Source of the DNA: a virus | IMG/VR virus record: IMGVR_UViG_3300042868_006771 | Span: 1 to 54,113 of that record | Reading direction: 5' to 3' (one strand) | Length of the DNA stretch: 54,113 nt | In this document: one piece after another, positions 42,332 through 49,207 of the stretch | How the letters are laid out: each line of letters opens with the position of its first letter | Position numbering within the stretch: the first letter of the stretch is position 1 | Made by a program: the position numbers and the translations under genes | The notes under the pieces: model-generated | Databases searched by the model: none | What the model was told of the DNA's origin: nothing | Seen by the model: only the letters and a program-made list of their open reading frames with translations

Positions 42332-42339
42332 ATATTTAT
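42332..42339 (-). promoter_or_regulatory. Late-type motif ATAAATAT within a palindrome
   Basis: Minus-strand ATAAATAT at the agt/cytochrome junction, embedded in the palindrome GTGTAATA-AA-TATTACAC. It could be an internal promoter or a processing hairpin. Confidence 0.4.
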
Positions 42340-43337
42340 TACACAACAGGCACTAAATTATTTCGAAATATTTCCCAGGCAGTTTGCCATGACCAACGCT
42401 GACTGCCGTCCCAAACTCGATGTCTGGGCAAGAACAAACAATCTGTTACTGCTTGTTTCAAGTAAGGATTCATACATCCTGTGATGCCTTCGTCTATGAC
42501 ATCCAATGGCCCAGTAGCAGGATATGCAGCCACCGGAGTTCCGCAGGCCATGGCTTCGATCATCACAATGCCAAATGTTTCCCACTGACTGGGAAACACA
42601 AACACATCTGCCAGGTTGTAGTAGTAGGCTAGATCAGCACCAGTTTTGAATCCCACAAACTCCACGTCAGGATAACGTGACTGTAACTCTGCACGATAAG
42701 GACCATCGCCTACTAAAATCTTGCGTGAGTTGGGATAACTCATGCCACAAAAGTCATCCAAGTTCTTTTCTTTGCTGACTCTACTTACACATACCAAGGT
42801 GGTCTTGGCATTGGGCCGGCGTTCTCTGGGATAAAATATCTCTCTATCCACACCACGTGTCCATGGTATGATGTCACCGTCGAACCCATGCTCGCGCAAC
42901 TCCTGTACCATGGTTTCAGTCGTGGTCAGCACTTTTCCTGAGTGTTTGTGAAACCAACGCACTAGAGGCCAAGTAATGGCTTCAGGTATGCCAAACAGTT
43001 TTCTAAGTCCTTCTGGAAATTTAGTATGATAAGCAGTGTTGTAGCGATAATGATGTTTGTCAAGATATTGTCTAACACGCAAACCCACAGGACCCTCGGT
43101 GGCGATGTGGATATGATCCGGACGGATCTCCTCAAGTATCGCGCCCACATTCCGGGGAAGGGCAATCTTGACTTGGTTGTAGCCAGGGCAATCAAAGTAG
43201 CGGAACCGCCCGGGATCAAGATATACAACACGATAGTTGTCGCGAATCGCATGCGCCTCAATATTTTTGTAAGTGGTAACCACGCCATTGATCTGATCCG
43301 GTAAGTTGTCTGTGACTATTAAGATTGTTTTTGACAT
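42339..43337 (-). CDS. agt: Agt-type glycosyltransferase (diacylglycerol glycosyltransferase)
   Basis: 332-residue GT4-family (GT-B) glycosyltransferase. The N-terminal acceptor domain has IVTDNLPDQINGVVTTYKNI and DHIHIATEGPVGLRVRQYLD...YHTKFPE, closely resembling the Agt proteins that glycosylate diacylglycerol in phosphate-starved bacteria; the C-terminal donor site is WETFGIVMIEAMACGTPVAA with the E-x7-E motif. Paired with plcP it would turn the released diacylglycerol into mono-glycosyl or glucuronosyl lipid, replacing phospholipid. It starts 33 nt behind plcP, with AAGGT upstream. The sugar donor cannot be told from the sequence. Confidence 0.75.
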   Translation of the reverse strand: MSKTILIVTDNLPDQINGVVTTYKNIEAHAIRDNYRVVYLDPGRFRYFDCPGYNQVKIALPRNVGAILEEIRPDHIHIATEGPVGLRVRQYLDKHHYRYNTAYHTKFPEGLRKLFGIPEAITWPLVRWFHKHSGKVLTTTETMVQELREHGFDGDIIPWTRGVDREIFYPRERRPNAKTTLVCVSRVSKEKNLDDFCGMSYPNSRKILVGDGPYRAELQSRYPDVEFVGFKTGADLAYYYNLADVFVFPSQWETFGIVMIEAMACGTPVAAYPATGPLDVIDEGITGCMNPYLKQAVTDCLFLPRHRVWDGSQRWSWQTAWEIFRNNLVPVV

Positions 43338-43370: not shown

Positions 43371-44243
43371 TCATATCGCATGGTCGCCAACACCTGTTCG
43401 CAACTGAGCTGATTTGGGAAAACTAATTCTATTCTTCCGGGTTGATCTTGCGGATTCGTGCTGTGTACTGCTATCAATATCATCAACCACATTGTCAGTC
43501 TCCTGTGTCCAAGTTACAATTTCCCATGTGCCATCATGGCGTTCTACCAAGGCTGTGCATGACTCTACCCAGTCGCCATCATTCATGTATGCAACGCCAT
43601 CTATATCTTTGATCTCTGCGTGATGTATGTGTCCGCAGATCACACCGTCGAATCCGCGTTTCCGGCAGTAGTCAGCAAGATTACGTTCAAAGTGAAATAT
43701 AAAGTCTACTGCTTTTTTGACCCGGTGTTTAAGGAACAGGCTAAGGCTAAAGTACCCAAAACCCATGCGATGACGAATCCAATTAATCCTAGTATTGAGC
43801 CCAAGAATGAAATCATATGCTTTGTCTCCCAACATTGCCAACCATGGCGCCAGTCTAGTGATGCCGTCAAACATGTCACCATGTACCACAAGATAATGCC
43901 GACCGTCTGCACCTATGTGTTCTGTTTGATTTACCAATTCAATTATGCCGAATCCAATGCCATACTGCATGAAGGGTCTTAGAAACTCGTCGTGATTACC
44001 AGCTACATATACAACCCTAGTACCACGCTTGCTATGACCCAGCACACGGCGAATAACATTAGTGTGCGACTGTTTCCATCGCCATTTGTTTTGTTTGATT
44101 TTCCATGCATCTATGATGTCTCCCACAAGATACAGCGTTTCGCAAGTGTTGTGTTTGAGAAAGTTGTTGAGTTTGTCAGCCTGGCTGTCTTTGGTGCCAA
44201 GATGAACATCGCTGATGAATATACTGCGATAAGTTTTTTGCAT
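43371..44243 (-). CDS. plcP: PlcP-type phospholipase C (lipid remodelling)
   Basis: 290-residue calcineurin-fold enzyme of COG2908. Metal-site motifs: SDVHLGT (D12, H14), GDIIDAW (D42), GNHDE (N83, H84), VHGDMFD (H121) and GHIHHA (H205, H207), then MNDGDWVESCTALVE. The family is usually annotated LpxH-like (UDP-diacylglucosamine hydrolase), but the D-G-D-W-V-E-S-C-T block, the length and above all the adjacent Agt and Pho box match PlcP, which cleaves phospholipids to diacylglycerol and phospho-headgroup. A ~40-residue charged C-terminal tail is extra. The ATG lies 4 nt after the -10, so the mRNA is predicted leaderless. Confidence 0.78.
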   Translation of the reverse strand: MQKTYRSIFISDVHLGTKDSQADKLNNFLKHNTCETLYLVGDIIDAWKIKQNKWRWKQSHTNVIRRVLGHSKRGTRVVYVAGNHDEFLRPFMQYGIGFGIIELVNQTEHIGADGRHYLVVHGDMFDGITRLAPWLAMLGDKAYDFILGLNTRINWIRHRMGFGYFSLSLFLKHRVKKAVDFIFHFERNLADYCRKRGFDGVICGHIHHAEIKDIDGVAYMNDGDWVESCTALVERHDGTWEIVTWTQETDNVVDDIDSSTQHESARSTRKNRISFPKSAQLRTGVGDHAI

Positions 44244-44247
44244 CTAG

Positions 44248-44282
44248 TATTTACAACCAGATGTGTTACATTAGCGTTACAG
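44248..44282 (-). promoter_or_regulatory. PhoB-type promoter of plcP-agt: Pho box + TAAATA
   Basis: On the minus strand CTGTAAC-GCTA-ATGTAAC (44265-44282), two 7-mers with 11-nt periodicity as in the Pho box consensus CTGTCAT-N4-CTGTCAT. Eleven bp downstream is TAAATA (44248-44253) as the -10. No -35 is needed at PhoB-activated promoters. It ends 4 nt before the plcP ATG. Confidence 0.8.
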
Positions 44283-44294
44283 TTTTATGTAAGT

Positions 44295-44453
44295 CTAAAT
44301 TCTAACCAAGGTCCATTTAGTTGTAAATGACTTGCCCTCGGCTCGGCGTTTAGCAATCTTCTGGAACTCCTGCATGCGTAGTTCCCGAATAGTTTTCTCG
44401 TCGTGGTCGAAGCAAGCCCGATACAACTTGGAAATCAATTTCCGTTGTTTCAT
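44295..44453 (-). CDS. Small basic phage protein (52 aa)
   Basis: Starts MKQRKLISKLYRACFDHDEK and ends ...KSFTTKWTLVRI. Very strong Shine-Dalgarno GGAGG upstream and an ATAAGTAT promoter motif. Rich in Lys/Arg/Glu, helical; similar short proteins occur in T4-like phages. Its end lies 13 nt from the plcP Pho box. Function unknown. Confidence 0.65.
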   Translation of the reverse strand: MKQRKLISKLYRACFDHDEKTIRELRMQEFQKIAKRRAEGKSFTTKWTLVRI

Positions 44454-44477
44454 AACCCACCCTCCATTAGTGTACAG

Positions 44478-44485
44478 ATACTTAT
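44478..44485 (-). promoter_or_regulatory. Promoter motif ATAAGTAT
   Basis: Minus-strand ATAAGTAT 24 nt upstream of ATG 44453. The identical 8-mer precedes two other minus-strand genes (46535, 49378). Confidence 0.55.
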
Positions 44486-44507
44486 ACTACATCACACAAT
44501 TTGTGAT

Positions 44508-44828
44508 CTAATTCTGCAATGTTTCTTGCCTGGCTGCTTGCAATTCTTTGCGTAGAGTATTGTAATCTTCTAGTGTAGCAACGGAAGGCACAGTAGACTT
44601 CATATAGGCAGGCGGTACAGTCTGCCATTCAGATTCACTCACACCGGCCACAATCATGGCAGTGTATTCGTGTCCGTCGCTGGTGTGCAGTTTTACTCGT
44701 TCAAATCCTTGTGGAGTCTTTGCTGCGTTCATACAGGCCTGTGCCAGTGCTCTAAGAGCCGCTGGGTCTGCTATGATGTGCAAATCTTGTTGGGGTTCAC
44801 TGTGAGGGTATATGTGTAGTCTAGCCAT
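44508..44828 (-). CDS. Small phage protein behind dnaE
   Basis: 106-residue protein (MARLHIYPHSEPQQDLHIIA) whose ATG overlaps the dnaE stop (TAATG). An alpha/beta pattern and the block EYTAMIVAGVSESEWQTVPP are visible; no motif is recognised. Co-translation with the DnaE-like polymerase suggests a related role (inference). A short inverted repeat ATCACA-N5-TGTGAT (44491-44507) follows its stop. Confidence 0.62.
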   Translation of the reverse strand: MARLHIYPHSEPQQDLHIIADPAALRALAQACMNAAKTPQGFERVKLHTSDGHEYTAMIVAGVSESEWQTVPPAYMKSTVPSVATLEDYNTLRKELQAARQETLQN

Positions 44829-46504
44829 TATGTTATGTGCTCAATGTCCTTTAGTTTCATACGTTTGCTTTTGTACACTTTAACACATTCACTACTGTTT
44901 GTATAGTCTAAACGGCCTTTGCCCCACAAGATTGGTTGATCGCTAAAGGACATGGCATGTGGCACTATCACATCTAGATAACGACCGTTGCCGGTGCCCA
45001 GGGTGGCAAAGGTTATGTAGTCTTTGGCGCCGCTTTTAAACACACGATAATTGGCCACCAATCCCAAAAACTCCACTTCGCCGGGACGTCTTATTTCAGT
45101 ACAGGCAGGAATAAAATTACTGCTGCTCCAACGACCAGTTCTTGCTAGTTCAGCACACTCTCCACCTTGGCTGGGCGAAGGCACAGCTCCGGCCAGTTTG
45201 GCTTCTTGATAATACACCCAACTGCTGTAACTGCCTTCGCAGTGTTTCAAACAGGCTCGCCAGAAAGCCTCAGGGTTATGTGCCTTTTGATAGGCCAAGG
45301 CCCAGATCAATCTGCCCAGATTGGTGGCATGAGCTCGACACAGTCCAAAATGACTGAGTTCACGTAGTGACGCCAACACACTATCACGTTTGGGATGATC
45401 ACCAATCAATTGCATAAACTCATAGATCTTTTCCTCATTGCGTTTGGCAAATGCTCTGCGCCACATGTCGGCAGTGTACATGTCACAACCCAGGATATCA
45501 GCAATCATGGTGATAGCATCATCCTCAAACACCACTGTGTCTTGCTGTATGGTATCAGCACTCCAGTCTTGGAACGCACTGGCTTTGCGTCTGCCTTGTG
45601 TGGCCACTGGACGGATCAAGGCAGTGGCCAATGTACAGTCACTTTTGCTCTTGACTTTTAAAGCGCGAAACAGTCTTTTCATAGCTGGTGATTCGCCTTG
45701 AGTCACACCCAACACATCACCACGACCCAGCAAGTCACTGGTCTTTTCATCATGTTCAGGATAGTCTGTTAGTGGACGCTGATCTATTTCCCACAACTGG
45801 CTCAGTCCACGATTGGCCAAGATATCTATTTTGAAATGTTCAAGATCTTCTGTTTCGTATTTGTCTAACAAGATTTGATTGTTGCCATTGATCAGGCTTT
45901 TGGGCACAGCACGATCAAAAATTAAGATGCCACCACAGTGTTTTGATATACAGCGTTTTTTGCCCATAAGTTTGGCTGTGACTCGTTCTGCTTCCTGTAT
46001 CTCTTCTGGAGGCAATACTTGGCTGAATTCAAAGCCACGTTTGAGTGTGCCTTTGGCTCCTAGCCTTTTGGCGGCTTCTCTCTTGGCAGACTTTTCTTTG
46101 TACATTACATAGTTGCTGACCCTGGCACTTTGTCCCGGCCAACGACGGAATATGCGATTCATCACAGTGGCCTGTTGCCAGTGTGGAAAGTCAAGATCAA
46201 TATCGGGCAGATCGTCACGTTTGGGATTCATGAAACGTGCTATGGGGATATTCTCTGCCACTGGGTCAAGATCGCTGATGCCCATGAGCCAGCACACAAG
46301 ACTTGAGCCTGCTGATCCTCGAGTGATGTGTGGTATGTCTGTGGTTAAATCTAATATTTCTCTCACACGCAAGAAGTGTCGAGAAAAATTTTGATCTCTA
46401 ATTAGTTCTAGTTCTTCTGCCAGTCTGTGTGCGTATTTGGGATCTTGGGGTAATTCTCTTCTAAATTGTTTTACTAGTTGTTCAAGTTCTCGATATCTAT
46501 CCAT
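44828..46504 (-). CDS. PHP-less DnaE-type DNA polymerase (PolIII alpha-like)
   Basis: 558-residue C-family polymerase, half the length of bacterial DnaE. It begins directly at the palm (ELELIRDQNFSRHFLRV, ITRGSAGSS at 60-68), with no PHP/proofreading domain. The catalytic aspartates are present: PDIDLDF (D101, D103) and KIDIL (D227); KHCGGILI matches the H-A-A-G motif. A fingers-like region follows (LCRAHATNLGRLIWALAYQK) and an OB-like C-terminus (GLVANYRVFKSGAKDYITF). The beta-clamp motif and tau domain are not seen. It could replicate phage DNA or carry out translesion synthesis. Shine-Dalgarno AAGG upstream; promoter motif ATAAGTAT. Confidence 0.82.
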   Translation of the reverse strand: MDRYRELEQLVKQFRRELPQDPKYAHRLAEELELIRDQNFSRHFLRVREILDLTTDIPHITRGSAGSSLVCWLMGISDLDPVAENIPIARFMNPKRDDLPDIDLDFPHWQQATVMNRIFRRWPGQSARVSNYVMYKEKSAKREAAKRLGAKGTLKRGFEFSQVLPPEEIQEAERVTAKLMGKKRCISKHCGGILIFDRAVPKSLINGNNQILLDKYETEDLEHFKIDILANRGLSQLWEIDQRPLTDYPEHDEKTSDLLGRGDVLGVTQGESPAMKRLFRALKVKSKSDCTLATALIRPVATQGRRKASAFQDWSADTIQQDTVVFEDDAITMIADILGCDMYTADMWRRAFAKRNEEKIYEFMQLIGDHPKRDSVLASLRELSHFGLCRAHATNLGRLIWALAYQKAHNPEAFWRACLKHCEGSYSSWVYYQEAKLAGAVPSPSQGGECAELARTGRWSSSNFIPACTEIRRPGEVEFLGLVANYRVFKSGAKDYITFATLGTGNGRYLDVIVPHAMSFSDQPILWGKGRLDYTNSSECVKVYKSKRMKLKDIEHIT

Positions 46505-46534
46505 TAATTTGCTGCCTTAGTTTGTTTTAGGAAA

Positions 46535-46542
46535 ATACTTAT
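46535..46542 (-). promoter_or_regulatory. Promoter motif ATAAGTAT of dnaE-like gene
   Basis: Minus-strand ATAAGTAT 30 nt upstream of ATG 46504. It overlaps the inverted repeat TATGGTA-N8-TACCATA (46540-46561), a possible operator. Confidence 0.55.
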
Positions 46543-46597
46543 GGTATGATATGCTACCATAGAAAGATTTTGGCTACCAACTCATGCAGTCGTAAAA

Positions 46598-46617
46598 AAA
46601 GGCCCTTCTGGGCCTTT
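46598..46617 (-). terminator. Rho-independent terminator of the porin/pstS unit
   Basis: Minus strand AAAGGCCC-AGAA-GGGCCTTT followed by a T tract. About 50 nt downstream of the porin stop. Confidence 0.88.
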
Positions 46618-46667
46618 AGTACTGGTTACGAGTTCCAGCGCCGCTCAATCGTTGCGGTCGGTTTTAA

Positions 46668-48050
46668 TTAAAAGTTGATTTGTGTGCGAACACTGACCAC
46701 ATTTTCTTTAGTGGTTGTGCCCATGTCAGTGGTGTCCAATGGTGCAATTGCTGTGTCAAATTTGGTGGTAGCATAGTTGGCCATGATTCTAGCATTGCTG
46801 TTAAGAATCCAGTTTACACCGTAGGTCACAGTTCTAGCACCAGTTGAGTTTTGTGTGCGGTTGCCTGTCACAGCACCGTCAACACTGTTGCTGCCAGCGG
46901 CTGAATATTCAGAAACACGCACACCCACTTGCCATGCACCGTGACCATTGCCCACAACACCGCCGTAGTCTTTCATGAACACCGACGATGGGGTGATGCC
47001 ACCGAATGCACCACCTTTGTAACTCTTGGCAAAGTCTTCACCAGTGATGTTGTACATGGCTTCTACATACTTGGCCTGAACACGAACATCTTGTGTGGCC
47101 ACACAAGCAGTGGTCACGCAACTGGTAGCACCTGTAACATAGTTATAGGTGTTGGCCGAAGCTGAGTAGTTGCTGTCAAAGTTTTCTGCTTGCAGTTTAA
47201 ATGGACCATGTGCCAGGGCCAGTTCAATACCGTTCATGGTACGCTGAATGCTCACTGCATTGTTGGCAGTGGCACCATAGGCTGCTGTGTCAATCTTGTC
47301 ACCACCAATCTGGGCACGATAAACATTGCTCATACCACGTGCTTCTGAACGCATGGACACAATGGTACCGCGTGTGGTTGTGCTGGGAGCATCCACAGTG
47401 TTGCCTGAAGTTGTGGGCACCAACTGTGACCGTCCACCAGTACGTGCCACACCCAAGTGCAACACAGTGTTGGGTCTAGCAATCAATTGACCAAAGTTCA
47501 CAGCCACACGTGCCGCATACTGTGAGCCCAAGGTGTTGTCGTTGTTACTTTCAGTGAAGTCACCTTGAAATGCTGACAATCCATACACTAAACCAGCACT
47601 TGGTTCGCCGTGTAGCATCACGCCCAAACGTTTACCTGGTACCAATTGATTGCCATATGAACGTTCCATAAAGCCAATGTTGTTAGAGCTAGTTTGCTCT
47701 TCCAAGCTGAAAGGCTGTTTGAATCTACCTGTGCGTAACTGTGCTGACTTATTAAAGCCATAATTGACAAACGCAGTGTCAATAAAGTTAGTAGTACCGC
47801 CAACAGCATTGCCCACCAACTCATAGTTGATCTGCTTGTTGATACTGCCATTGATACCAATTCTAGCTCTACGCAGTTCAAAGTTGTCGCCCACGCTGGC
47901 ACTGTCACGGTCCACAGAGTCTGTTAGATCTGTTTGGAATGCTCGTGTGTCAAAATGCACACGGCCTGTGACCTTGGCATCCACCTGTGCCATTGCTGGC
48001 GATGTCAGGGCCACAAATACTGCAGCCAAGACTAATTTCGTAAATTTCAT
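46668..48050 (-). CDS. Outer-membrane porin, phosphate-selective (OprP/OprO) type
   Basis: 460-residue outer-membrane beta-barrel. A Sec signal peptide (MKFTKLVLAAVFVALTSPAM..., cleavage near A-M-A) is followed by barrel strands with the OprP-family blocks FELRRARIGINGSINKQINY and RTGRFKQPFSLEEQTSSNNI, and the chain ends ...SVRTQINF with the C-terminal Phe needed for BAM insertion. It would let phosphate or other anions through the outer membrane. It lies 65 nt downstream of pstS but also has its own perfect sigma70 promoter and Shine-Dalgarno AAAGGAG. Phosphate selectivity is inferred from family and context; the porin could also alter phage adsorption. Confidence 0.85.
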   Translation of the reverse strand: MKFTKLVLAAVFVALTSPAMAQVDAKVTGRVHFDTRAFQTDLTDSVDRDSASVGDNFELRRARIGINGSINKQINYELVGNAVGGTTNFIDTAFVNYGFNKSAQLRTGRFKQPFSLEEQTSSNNIGFMERSYGNQLVPGKRLGVMLHGEPSAGLVYGLSAFQGDFTESNNDNTLGSQYAARVAVNFGQLIARPNTVLHLGVARTGGRSQLVPTTSGNTVDAPSTTTRGTIVSMRSEARGMSNVYRAQIGGDKIDTAAYGATANNAVSIQRTMNGIELALAHGPFKLQAENFDSNYSASANTYNYVTGATSCVTTACVATQDVRVQAKYVEAMYNITGEDFAKSYKGGAFGGITPSSVFMKDYGGVVGNGHGAWQVGVRVSEYSAAGSNSVDGAVTGNRTQNSTGARTVTYGVNWILNSNARIMANYATTKFDTAIAPLDTTDMGTTTKENVVSVRTQINF

Positions 48051-48076
48051 AGTTTCTCCTTTAGATTTACTTTTGT

Positions 48077-48104
48077 ATTATAACATATTATGTAGTGTTG
48101 TCAA
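48077..48104 (-). promoter_or_regulatory. Consensus sigma70 promoter of the porin gene
   Basis: Minus strand TTGACA (48099-48104), 16-bp spacer, TATAAT (48077-48082), with Shine-Dalgarno AAAGGAG downstream. It allows porin expression independent of pstS. Confidence 0.8.
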
Positions 48105-48115
48105 TACCACAGCAG

Positions 48116-49135
48116 TTATTTTTTGATCTGTGACCAAACACGGTCACGAATCTGTTGAGTCAGAACATCTGGCAACGGCACGTAGTCTAGATCCAGTGCG
48201 GCCTTTTGTCCATTCTTAAATGCCCAGTCAAAGAATTTCAATGCTTCGGCACTTTGTTTACGATCTGTGGGATCCTTGTACATGAGAATAAAACTAGCAG
48301 TGCTCACTGGCCACACTGCGTCGCCCTTTTGATCCACAATGCTCAGGCCCATACCAGGCACACTGAACCAATCTGCACCAGCAGCCGCGGCAGCAAAGGT
48401 GGTGTCATCTGGTGATACCCAGCGACCATTGCGGTTCTGCATCTGCATGAACACCAGTTTGTTTTTCTTCACATACGCATACTCAACATAGCCGATGCTA
48501 CCTTTAATACGTGCCACATTGGCAGCAACACCTTCATTGCCTTTGCCACCCACAGAACTTGGTGCAGGCCATTTTACAGCAGCACCACGACCCACACGTT
48601 CCAACCAGGCAGGACTGGCTGTGCTGAGATAGTCAGTCCAGTTAAATGTGGTACCTGAACCATCAGCACGATGTACAACGGTAATGGTTTGATCTGGCAA
48701 CACCTTGCCGGGATTGAGGGCCTGAAGTCGAGCATCATTCCACTTGGAGATGTCGCCCAAGAAAATTTCTGCCAGCACTGGACCGGTGACTCTGAGTTCA
48801 CCAGGTTTAAATCCCTGTAGATTCACAATGGGCACAGTGCCGCCAATGATGGCAGGAAACTGTACCATGCCTTCTTTTTCTAAATCTGCACCTGACATGG
48901 GTGCATCTGTAGCACCAAATATCACAGTCTTGGCTTTGATCTGTCTGATGCCACCTGAACTGCCGATACTTTGGTAGTTCAATTGAACATCGTGTTTTTC
49001 GCTGTAGATTTCAGCCCACTTGCTATAAATGGGAAAGGGGAAAGTTGCGCCTGCCCCAGTGATGGTGTTTTGAGCATTTGCTGACGGACTCAGCAAATAT
49101 AGTGTTGCGGCCAACAAGGCCAAGATTTTTTTCAT
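48116..49135 (-). CDS. pstS: Periplasmic phosphate-binding protein PstS
   Basis: 339-residue PstS from ATG 49135, chosen because AAAGGAAA precedes it and the signal peptide MKKILALLAATLYLLSPSAN begins there. Ligand-binding blocks are ITGAGATFPFPIYSKW, NYQSIGSSGGIRQI, FGATDAPMSG and HRADGSGTTFNWTDYL. It delivers phosphate to the host PstCAB transporter; phage pstS genes are known from cyanophages. It is the first gene behind a Pho box. Confidence 0.96.
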   Translation of the reverse strand: MKKILALLAATLYLLSPSANAQNTITGAGATFPFPIYSKWAEIYSEKHDVQLNYQSIGSSGGIRQIKAKTVIFGATDAPMSGADLEKEGMVQFPAIIGGTVPIVNLQGFKPGELRVTGPVLAEIFLGDISKWNDARLQALNPGKVLPDQTITVVHRADGSGTTFNWTDYLSTASPAWLERVGRGAAVKWPAPSSVGGKGNEGVAANVARIKGSIGYVEYAYVKKNKLVFMQMQNRNGRWVSPDDTTFAAAAAGADWFSVPGMGLSIVDQKGDAVWPVSTASFILMYKDPTDRKQSAEALKFFDWAFKNGQKAALDLDYVPLPDVLTQQIRDRVWSQIKK

Positions 49136-49172
49136 GTGTTTTCCTTTGTGAATTTGTGCGATTGCACAATAA

Positions 49173-49207
49173 TATTTAAACACAAAGATATTACAGTAGT
49201 GTTACAG
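49173..49207 (-). promoter_or_regulatory. PhoB-type promoter of pstS: Pho box + TAAATA
   Basis: Minus strand CTGTAAC-ACTA-CTGTAAT (49190-49207), direct 7-mers at 11-nt spacing, followed after exactly 11 bp by TAAATA (49173-49178). The box starts 55 nt upstream of the pstS ATG and overlaps the stop codon of the 50-aa gene. Confidence 0.85.

Follow-up and report, generated by a model that had tools for sequence, protein, structure and literature searches.

The virus record IMGVR_UViG_3300042868_006771, a linear IMG/VR entry of 54,113 bases (GC 0.451) analysed over its full length and called the window below, carries two sites at which a Pho box, the tandem repeat recognized by the phosphate-response regulator PhoB, is followed after exactly 11 nucleotides (nt) by TAAATA, the core hexamer of T4-type late promoters. 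One of these sites stands before plcP, a phosphoesterase gene, and the other before pstS, the gene for a phosphate-binding protein. Comparison with related phages strongly supports reading such sites as composite promoters, in which a box for the host's PhoB would be joined to a phage late-type core. The whole account, in which these composite promoters are also nested in hairpins of read-through transcripts, we consider probable, at roughly 0.7.

A Pho box at a fixed distance from a late-type core

The first-pass annotation of this DNA had described, before plcP and pstS, a pair of 7-4-7 repeats that each have TAAATA 11 nt further on, and its coordinates, spacers and cores are all exact (Table 1). 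A search for the box pattern that tolerates up to two mismatches returns two matches in the whole window, each with no mismatch at all. The exact box occurs in none of 400 dinucleotide shuffles of the window, and the same holds for the box with N11 and TAAATA attached.

The arrangement recurs, before the same kinds of genes, in related phages. A protein-led sample of 80 plcP and 80 pstS loci, from which near-copies were then removed, shows the box upstream of 37 of 43 distinct pstS genes and 27 of 56 distinct plcP genes, versus 11 of 1376 other open reading frames from the same loci. Pattern scans of IMG/VR that take no account of gene content yield 137 distinct box-N11-TAAATA sites, 105 of them placed before pstS (55), plcP (43) or a PiT-like phosphate transporter (7); single sites precede proteins that were assigned by eye as porin-like and Na/Pi-cotransporter-like. 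Eighteen large phage records totalling 3.9 Mb contain 18 pattern matches, versus none for a reversed control. When TAAATA is obligatory but the spacer is left free within 8-13 nt, the spacer measures 11 nt in 187 of 189 distinct sites. Box, spacing and core are fixed in diverged phages, while the sequence of the spacer varies.

Every box-bearing region in the protein-led sample holds the TAAATA late core, although the core is not always in the same place. The pstS promoters comprise 29 of the fused N11-TAAATA form, 7 of a split form (N10-TANNNT, plus TAAATA at 21) and 1 with TAAATA at 10, and at eight plcP loci TAAATA lies at 21-22, one repeat further. The half-sites of phage boxes are mostly TGTAAY, and some, at five loci, are TGTCAY.

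Other settings for these motifs are also seen. At nine loci a near-identical box-N11-TAAATA is followed by TTTTGTAGTTRGGAGTGAGCC with no clear gene 3' of it, and this element is perhaps a non-coding RNA or a repeated element. Seven loci have Pho-box/late-core promoters before a small protein family starting MRFEDLAARLVAVEAKL, possibly a further phosphate-linked phage gene. The cultured SAR11 phage Pelagibacter phage Mosig EXVC030M has divergent pstS and plcP genes flanking one 150-bp region (1342-1491), which contains repeated TTAAC motifs and a TAAATA 5 nt 5' of the plcP ATG.

Two findings make it most likely that these phages use TAAATA as their dominant late-type promoter core, as the first-pass annotation had supposed. 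The hexamer is concentrated upstream of predicted genes (a 349-kb relative has 74 sites where 2.0 are expected, a 212-kb relative 48 where 2.3 are expected, and the window 18 where 1.0 is expected), and a late sigma factor of the gp55 family (phrog_234, identified via T4 gp55) is found in 10 of 18 relatives. The T4 octamer TATAAATA is represented by its core, but only 4 of the 189 Pho sites also have its flanking TA; most ordinary late-type sites in these phages likewise consist of bare TAAATA, and the full octamer is rare. Outside the Pho sites, no conserved partner element appears in the 8 bases 5' of TAAATA. The distance from TAAATA to the start codon is bimodal, with about 40% of cores at 0-9 nt and about 40% at 15-24 nt. 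Given the first of these groups, many late mRNAs of these T4-like phages (the window, L362-L379 of G016 and L380-L390 of G003) seem to be leaderless, and the plcP mRNA begun at its TAAATA core is predicted to be leaderless.

Promoters nested in predicted hairpins

At both sites of the window, part of the 11-nt spacer can pair with the start region of the gene downstream (Table 1). Across diverged loci, arms pair better with their own partners than with swapped ones: for plcP the values are -9.14 versus -6.14 kcal/mol (n = 37, z -8.0; none of 20,000 permutations of the spacers does better), and for pstS -6.69 versus -5.72 kcal/mol (z -4.3, n = 56). Sliding the upstream window confines the strong pairing effect to the 11-nt spacer. 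Because the spacer co-varies in this way with the downstream start region, the promoter appears to be nested in a hairpin. The 3' arm overlaps the start codon or Shine-Dalgarno sequence (by a -12..+2 criterion) in 28 of 52 pstS and 10 of 27 plcP cases, and at three loci it agrees with the synonymous codon choices of plcP. PiT genes give no hairpin signal (n = 6). A translational lock on read-through mRNA is, on these comparisons, likely at the level of the family.

A separate, perfect hairpin, TTGTGC-AATC-GCACAA, lies at 49154..49169 (minus strand), near the predicted 5' end of the pstS mRNA, and similar hairpins occur at six other loci. It may protect the 5' end of that mRNA.

The mechanism we propose would work as follows. 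The host-PhoB box would keep its normal register while the host -10 (N10-TANNNT) is swapped for the phage late core (N11-TAAATA). In a phosphate-starved host, PhoB~P, made active through the host's own starvation response, would bind the box and recruit or stabilize RNA polymerase at plcP-agt and pstS-porin, most likely with a phage gp55-type late sigma factor. PstS and the porin would boost phosphate uptake, mainly when phosphorus is short, and PlcP and the glycosyltransferase would release phosphorus from membrane phospholipids. Transcripts reading through from upstream would fold so that the spacer pairs with the start region and hides the start codon or Shine-Dalgarno sequence; transcripts begun at the composite promoter would lack the 5' arm and be free for translation. 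Within this scheme PhoB binding, the sigma factor used, induction by starvation, the translational lock and the enzyme activities are what we infer. A more specific form, in which PhoB directly activates the gp55-type polymerase at hybrid promoters within translation-locking hairpins, making an AND gate (phage replication begun, host phosphate-starved) in many T4-like phages whose hosts are not cyanobacteria, falls not far short of an even chance.

Regulator, sigma factor and rival explanations

The PhoB-type DNA-binding domain PF00486 is found in 0 of 18 phage relatives, in records that may be incomplete, and not in the window, while it has matches in 10 control genomes. A phage-encoded PhoB is rejected on these counts, and the regulator is for that reason read as the host's PhoB, whose use at the phage sites is likely as judged from sequence. 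In Pseudomonadota pstS promoters with a strong box, the TA of the -10 begins exactly 10 nt past the box in 28 of 28; the phage TAAATA begins at 11, and since the bacterial -10 is N10-TANNNT the hexamer itself differs. The T of TAAATA stands at -7 in the T4 late promoter register, and when the last T of TANNNT is aligned with it the distance from box to start is equal in phages and bacteria. The phage sites thus have the tandem 7-nt half-sites with a 4-nt gap, the bacterial register and the phosphate-gene targets of a Pho regulon. Control by the host's PhoB, which the first-pass annotation had put forward, gains in silico support from the recurrence before pstS, plcP and PiT, from the shared register, and from the lack of a PhoB-like domain in the phage records searched.

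Several observations weigh against the account. Scored with a matrix made from 28 pstS boxes of bacteria, the window's sites come only 4th and 6th, and shuffled sequence yields 7.7 sites scoring as well, so that the matrix-versus-shuffle check suggested in the first-pass annotation does not discriminate; this single genome therefore offers weak evidence, and it is the relatives that carry the case. (The matrix is a weak proxy for the host's PhoB, because it comes mostly from high-GC, TGTCAY-using bacteria, and a score from such a matrix is not a defining feature of the Pho regulon.) The sampled bacterial boxes are mostly TGTCAY, versus mostly TGTAAY in phages. The window's own hairpins are weak, with z values of -1.1 (plcP) and -1.7 (pstS) that are not significant, and ordinary TAAATA sites outside the Pho group show own-arm pairing as well, if weaker (P = 4e-4), so such hairpins may not be confined to Pho genes. 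No gp55 is found in the window's 54-kb fragment. The base before TAAATA is T in 58% of Pho sites (28/48) versus 12% of ordinary late sites (16/137; p = 7e-10), which means that Pho sites are not plain late promoters. PhoB normally contacts domain 4 of sigma70, its usual partner, and gp33 sits at that place in T4; for this reason the use of the late sigma factor with PhoB, instead of sigma70, is at best slightly better than an even bet. In T4, gp33 occupies the very beta-flap site that sigma domain 4 would use (PMC2988020).

These last points lend themselves to another explanation, in which host sigma70 is PhoB's only partner. An early starvation promoter would consist of the box and a weak -10 that overlaps TAAATA (TTAAAT at N10 or AATANT at N13), and TAAATA would add PhoB-independent late expression, so that two superimposed promoters serve different phases of infection. 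The enriched T, at -12, is sigma70-like, the normal contact of PhoB is as just described, and the seven split pstS promoters have a host-like N10-TANNNT with TAAATA about one helical turn 3' of it; the T preference and the split form favour some use of sigma70. In the fused class, however, position -11 is T, whereas sigma70 depends most on an A there, and every site keeps an intact late core. The bacterial promoters have their TA at offset 10 in 28/28. We regard sigma70 alone as a genuine possibility, though one clearly below even odds. An operator or cruciform in DNA, governing initiation, could also account for inverted repeats around TAAATA with no RNA lock involved, since the arms exist in DNA too and the covariation test is blind to the difference between DNA and RNA. 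It is unlikely, given that the 3' arm so often covers the start codon or Shine-Dalgarno sequence, at a position that varies by phage, and that in the precedent, T4 gene e, the lock is formed by RNA (PMC3014915).

The identity of the regulator and the function of the boxes allow two further alternatives. Regulators of the OmpR family also use similarly spaced tandem repeats, and some other host member, RstA-like for example, might bind the repeats in place of PhoB, which could go with the phages' TGTAAY half-site, the bacterial pstS promoters sampled having TGTCAY. Yet the targets are phosphate genes (pstS, plcP and PiT, and singly the porin-like and Na/Pi-cotransporter-like genes), some phage sites do read TGTCAY, and the register is that of bacterial pstS boxes, all of which makes another regulator quite improbable. 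More improbable still is that the boxes are inert remnants carried in with host-derived genes. Both pstS and plcP are bacterial genes; the nearest bacterial relatives of pstS, all in one bacterial family, are 70-75% identical, and those of plcP, in alphaproteobacterial metagenome-assembled genomes, are about 60% identical and show no matching box layout. The N11-TAAATA form, however, is found in 0 of 398 Pseudomonadota genomes and is nevertheless constant in diverged phages, with box, spacing and core unchanged while the spacer drifts. Composite promoters of host PhoB and a phage late core, nested in read-through hairpins, remain the reading we prefer.

Phosphate genes, an RNA at the operon end, and known systems

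Table 1. Features of the window; all lie on the minus strand.
Feature	Position	Strand	Basis
plcP Pho box CTGTAACGCTAATGTAAC, 7-4-7	44265..44282	-	exact sequence; kept before plcP in related phages
plcP promoter spacer, 11 nt; co-varies with start region	44254..44264	-	sequence
plcP TAAATA late-type core, 4 nt 5' of ATG	44248..44253	-	sequence; TAAATA enrichment, leader lengths
plcP hairpin CATCTGG-TTGTAAATA-CTAGATG; late core in loop, ATG in 3' arm	44241..44263 (arms 44257-44263 and 44241-44247)	-	predicted, -6.0 kcal/mol, z -1.1
pstS Pho box CTGTAACACTACTGTAAT	49190..49207	-	exact sequence; kept before pstS in related phages
pstS TAAATA late-type core, 11 nt past box (spacer 49179-49189)	49173..49178	-	sequence
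pstS read-through stem, CTTTGTG (49181-49187, in spacer) with CACAAAG (49144-49150, over Shine-Dalgarno AAAGGA)	49144..49187	-	predicted, -12.9 kcal/mol, z -1.7
pstS, phosphate-binding protein	48116..49135	-	NCBIfam NF008171, 392 bits vs cut-off 339; Pfam PF12849
OprO/OprP-type phosphate porin, 3' of pstS	46668..48050	-	Pfam PF07396, E=1.4e-39
Pseudoknot RNA, begins at porin stop codon, 3' end of pstS-porin operon	46618..46668	-	covariation
Intrinsic terminator GGCCCAGAAGGGCC then U run, 3' of pseudoknot	46594..46617	-	sequence
plcP-like metallophosphoesterase, 290 amino acids	43371..44243	-	Pfam PF00149
GT4 glycosyltransferase, agt-like, directly 3' of plcP	42339..43337	-	Pfam PF13692/PF00534

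The source phage is a large, T4-like virus that infects aquatic bacteria. Of 18 larger phage relatives, 9 have a capsid gene of the T4 gp23 type, and the window's helicases, primase, ribonucleotide reductase and ligase are phage genes with replication and nucleotide functions; the ribonucleotide reductase DNA matches phages of Xanthomonas and Stenotrophomonas best, at 64-68% along part of its length. The 54,113 bases contain no tRNA genes. Hosts of the phages with the hybrid promoter are probably heterotrophic bacteria.

The PlcP protein is related to LpxH yet scores far under the LpxH model cut-offs. Its gene adjoins the glycosyltransferase gene, as in the PlcP-Agt layout, and the order of plcP followed by GT4 is also seen at three other loci and in two bacterial relatives. 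The 65-bp gap between pstS and the porin gene has no Pho box for the porin alone, and the two genes probably share one operon. Between the porin gene and plcP lies a DnaE-like protein of 558 amino acids (44828-46504) whose match to DNA polymerase III alpha is confined to the NTPase and finger domains.

The RNA that begins at the porin stop codon is a new one: a search of Rfam gives no match at the gathering score and none credible at E<10. The motif occurs 3' of pstS or the porin gene in many relatives (about 60 non-redundant copies), where a terminator or plcP follows it; it stands directly 5' of plcP in phages whose plcP is without its own box. Across 42 sequences, 96.3% of paired cells are occupied by pairs, versus 82.3 for shuffled alignments, and covariation is 0.429 versus 0.145; sliding the structure along the alignment gives covariation of 0.105 at most. 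The pseudoknot pair 25-41 alternates among AU, GC, GU and CG and is never broken. A plcP leader riboswitch was considered and dropped, as the RNA directly follows the stop codon of pstS or the porin gene, and each of the two large relatives scanned in full has a single copy. Its role may be to protect the 3' end or to govern read-through into plcP, both of them guesses.

Control of cyanophage genes by the host's PhoB is already known, with loosely defined boxes. The literature searched holds no report of a phage plcP with Pho boxes, of a Pho-box/late-core hybrid, or of the pseudoknot RNA, and neither plcP nor Pho boxes are named alongside the phosphate genes that a terrestrial-phage survey lists (PMC10987575). 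The rigid, easily recognized promoter design, found in more than 100 T4-like phages, links a nutrient sensor of the host to the late programme of the phage, and gives a sequence rule for spotting auxiliary genes that are conditionally expressed. It widens the phage Pho regulon to the plcP-glycosyltransferase genes, by which infected cells could recycle membrane phosphorus, and it raises a testable question, whether a bacterial response regulator activates a polymerase bearing gp55.

Several known systems each share a part of this design. Bacterial PhoB-dependent promoters, of which E. coli phoA is an example, resemble the phage sites (in the comparison with 28 Pseudomonadota pstS promoters) in their two 7-nt half-sites, 4-nt gap and equal distance to the inferred start, but have N10-TANNNT where the phages have N11-TAAATA. 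Among cyanophages, pstS of P-SSM2 is described as under host PhoBR control (Zeng and Chisholm 2012, as cited in PMC10976474) and S-PM2d has been studied by gel shifts (PMC10976474). These too are T4-like phages in which host PhoR/PhoB turns on phage genes under phosphate starvation. The cyanobacterial consensus, however, is PyTTAAPyPyT/A with no single layout among cyanophages (PMC3037559), and prediction of Pho boxes has been called unreliable (PMC10976474), whereas here one rigid layout is fused to a late core in more than 100 phages and plcP is controlled too.

T4 late promoters (TATAAATA, served by gp55, gp33 and gp45) likewise have a TAAATA core, no -35 element, a position near gene starts and, in the relatives, the gp55 family; cyanophage S-PM2 has the late promoter NATAAATA (PMC2984593). 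T4 late promoters function without need for upstream sequence (PMC2988020), unlike the phage sites described here, which add an activator box at a fixed distance and seldom keep the flanking TA (4/189). Leader hairpins of T4 genes e, soc, 49 and I-TevI enclose a late promoter and hide the start site (PMC3014915), so that read-through mRNA hides it and promoter-initiated mRNA exposes it, as we propose here; the T4 switch answers to infection time only, whereas the nested promoter here also bears a host stress box. The PlcP-Agt lipid renovation system of P. aeruginosa (PMC9804370) has the same order of a metallophosphoesterase gene and then a glycosyltransferase gene, but in the present case the pair is phage-borne, its activity is predicted, and in many relatives the partner is GT2 rather than GT4.

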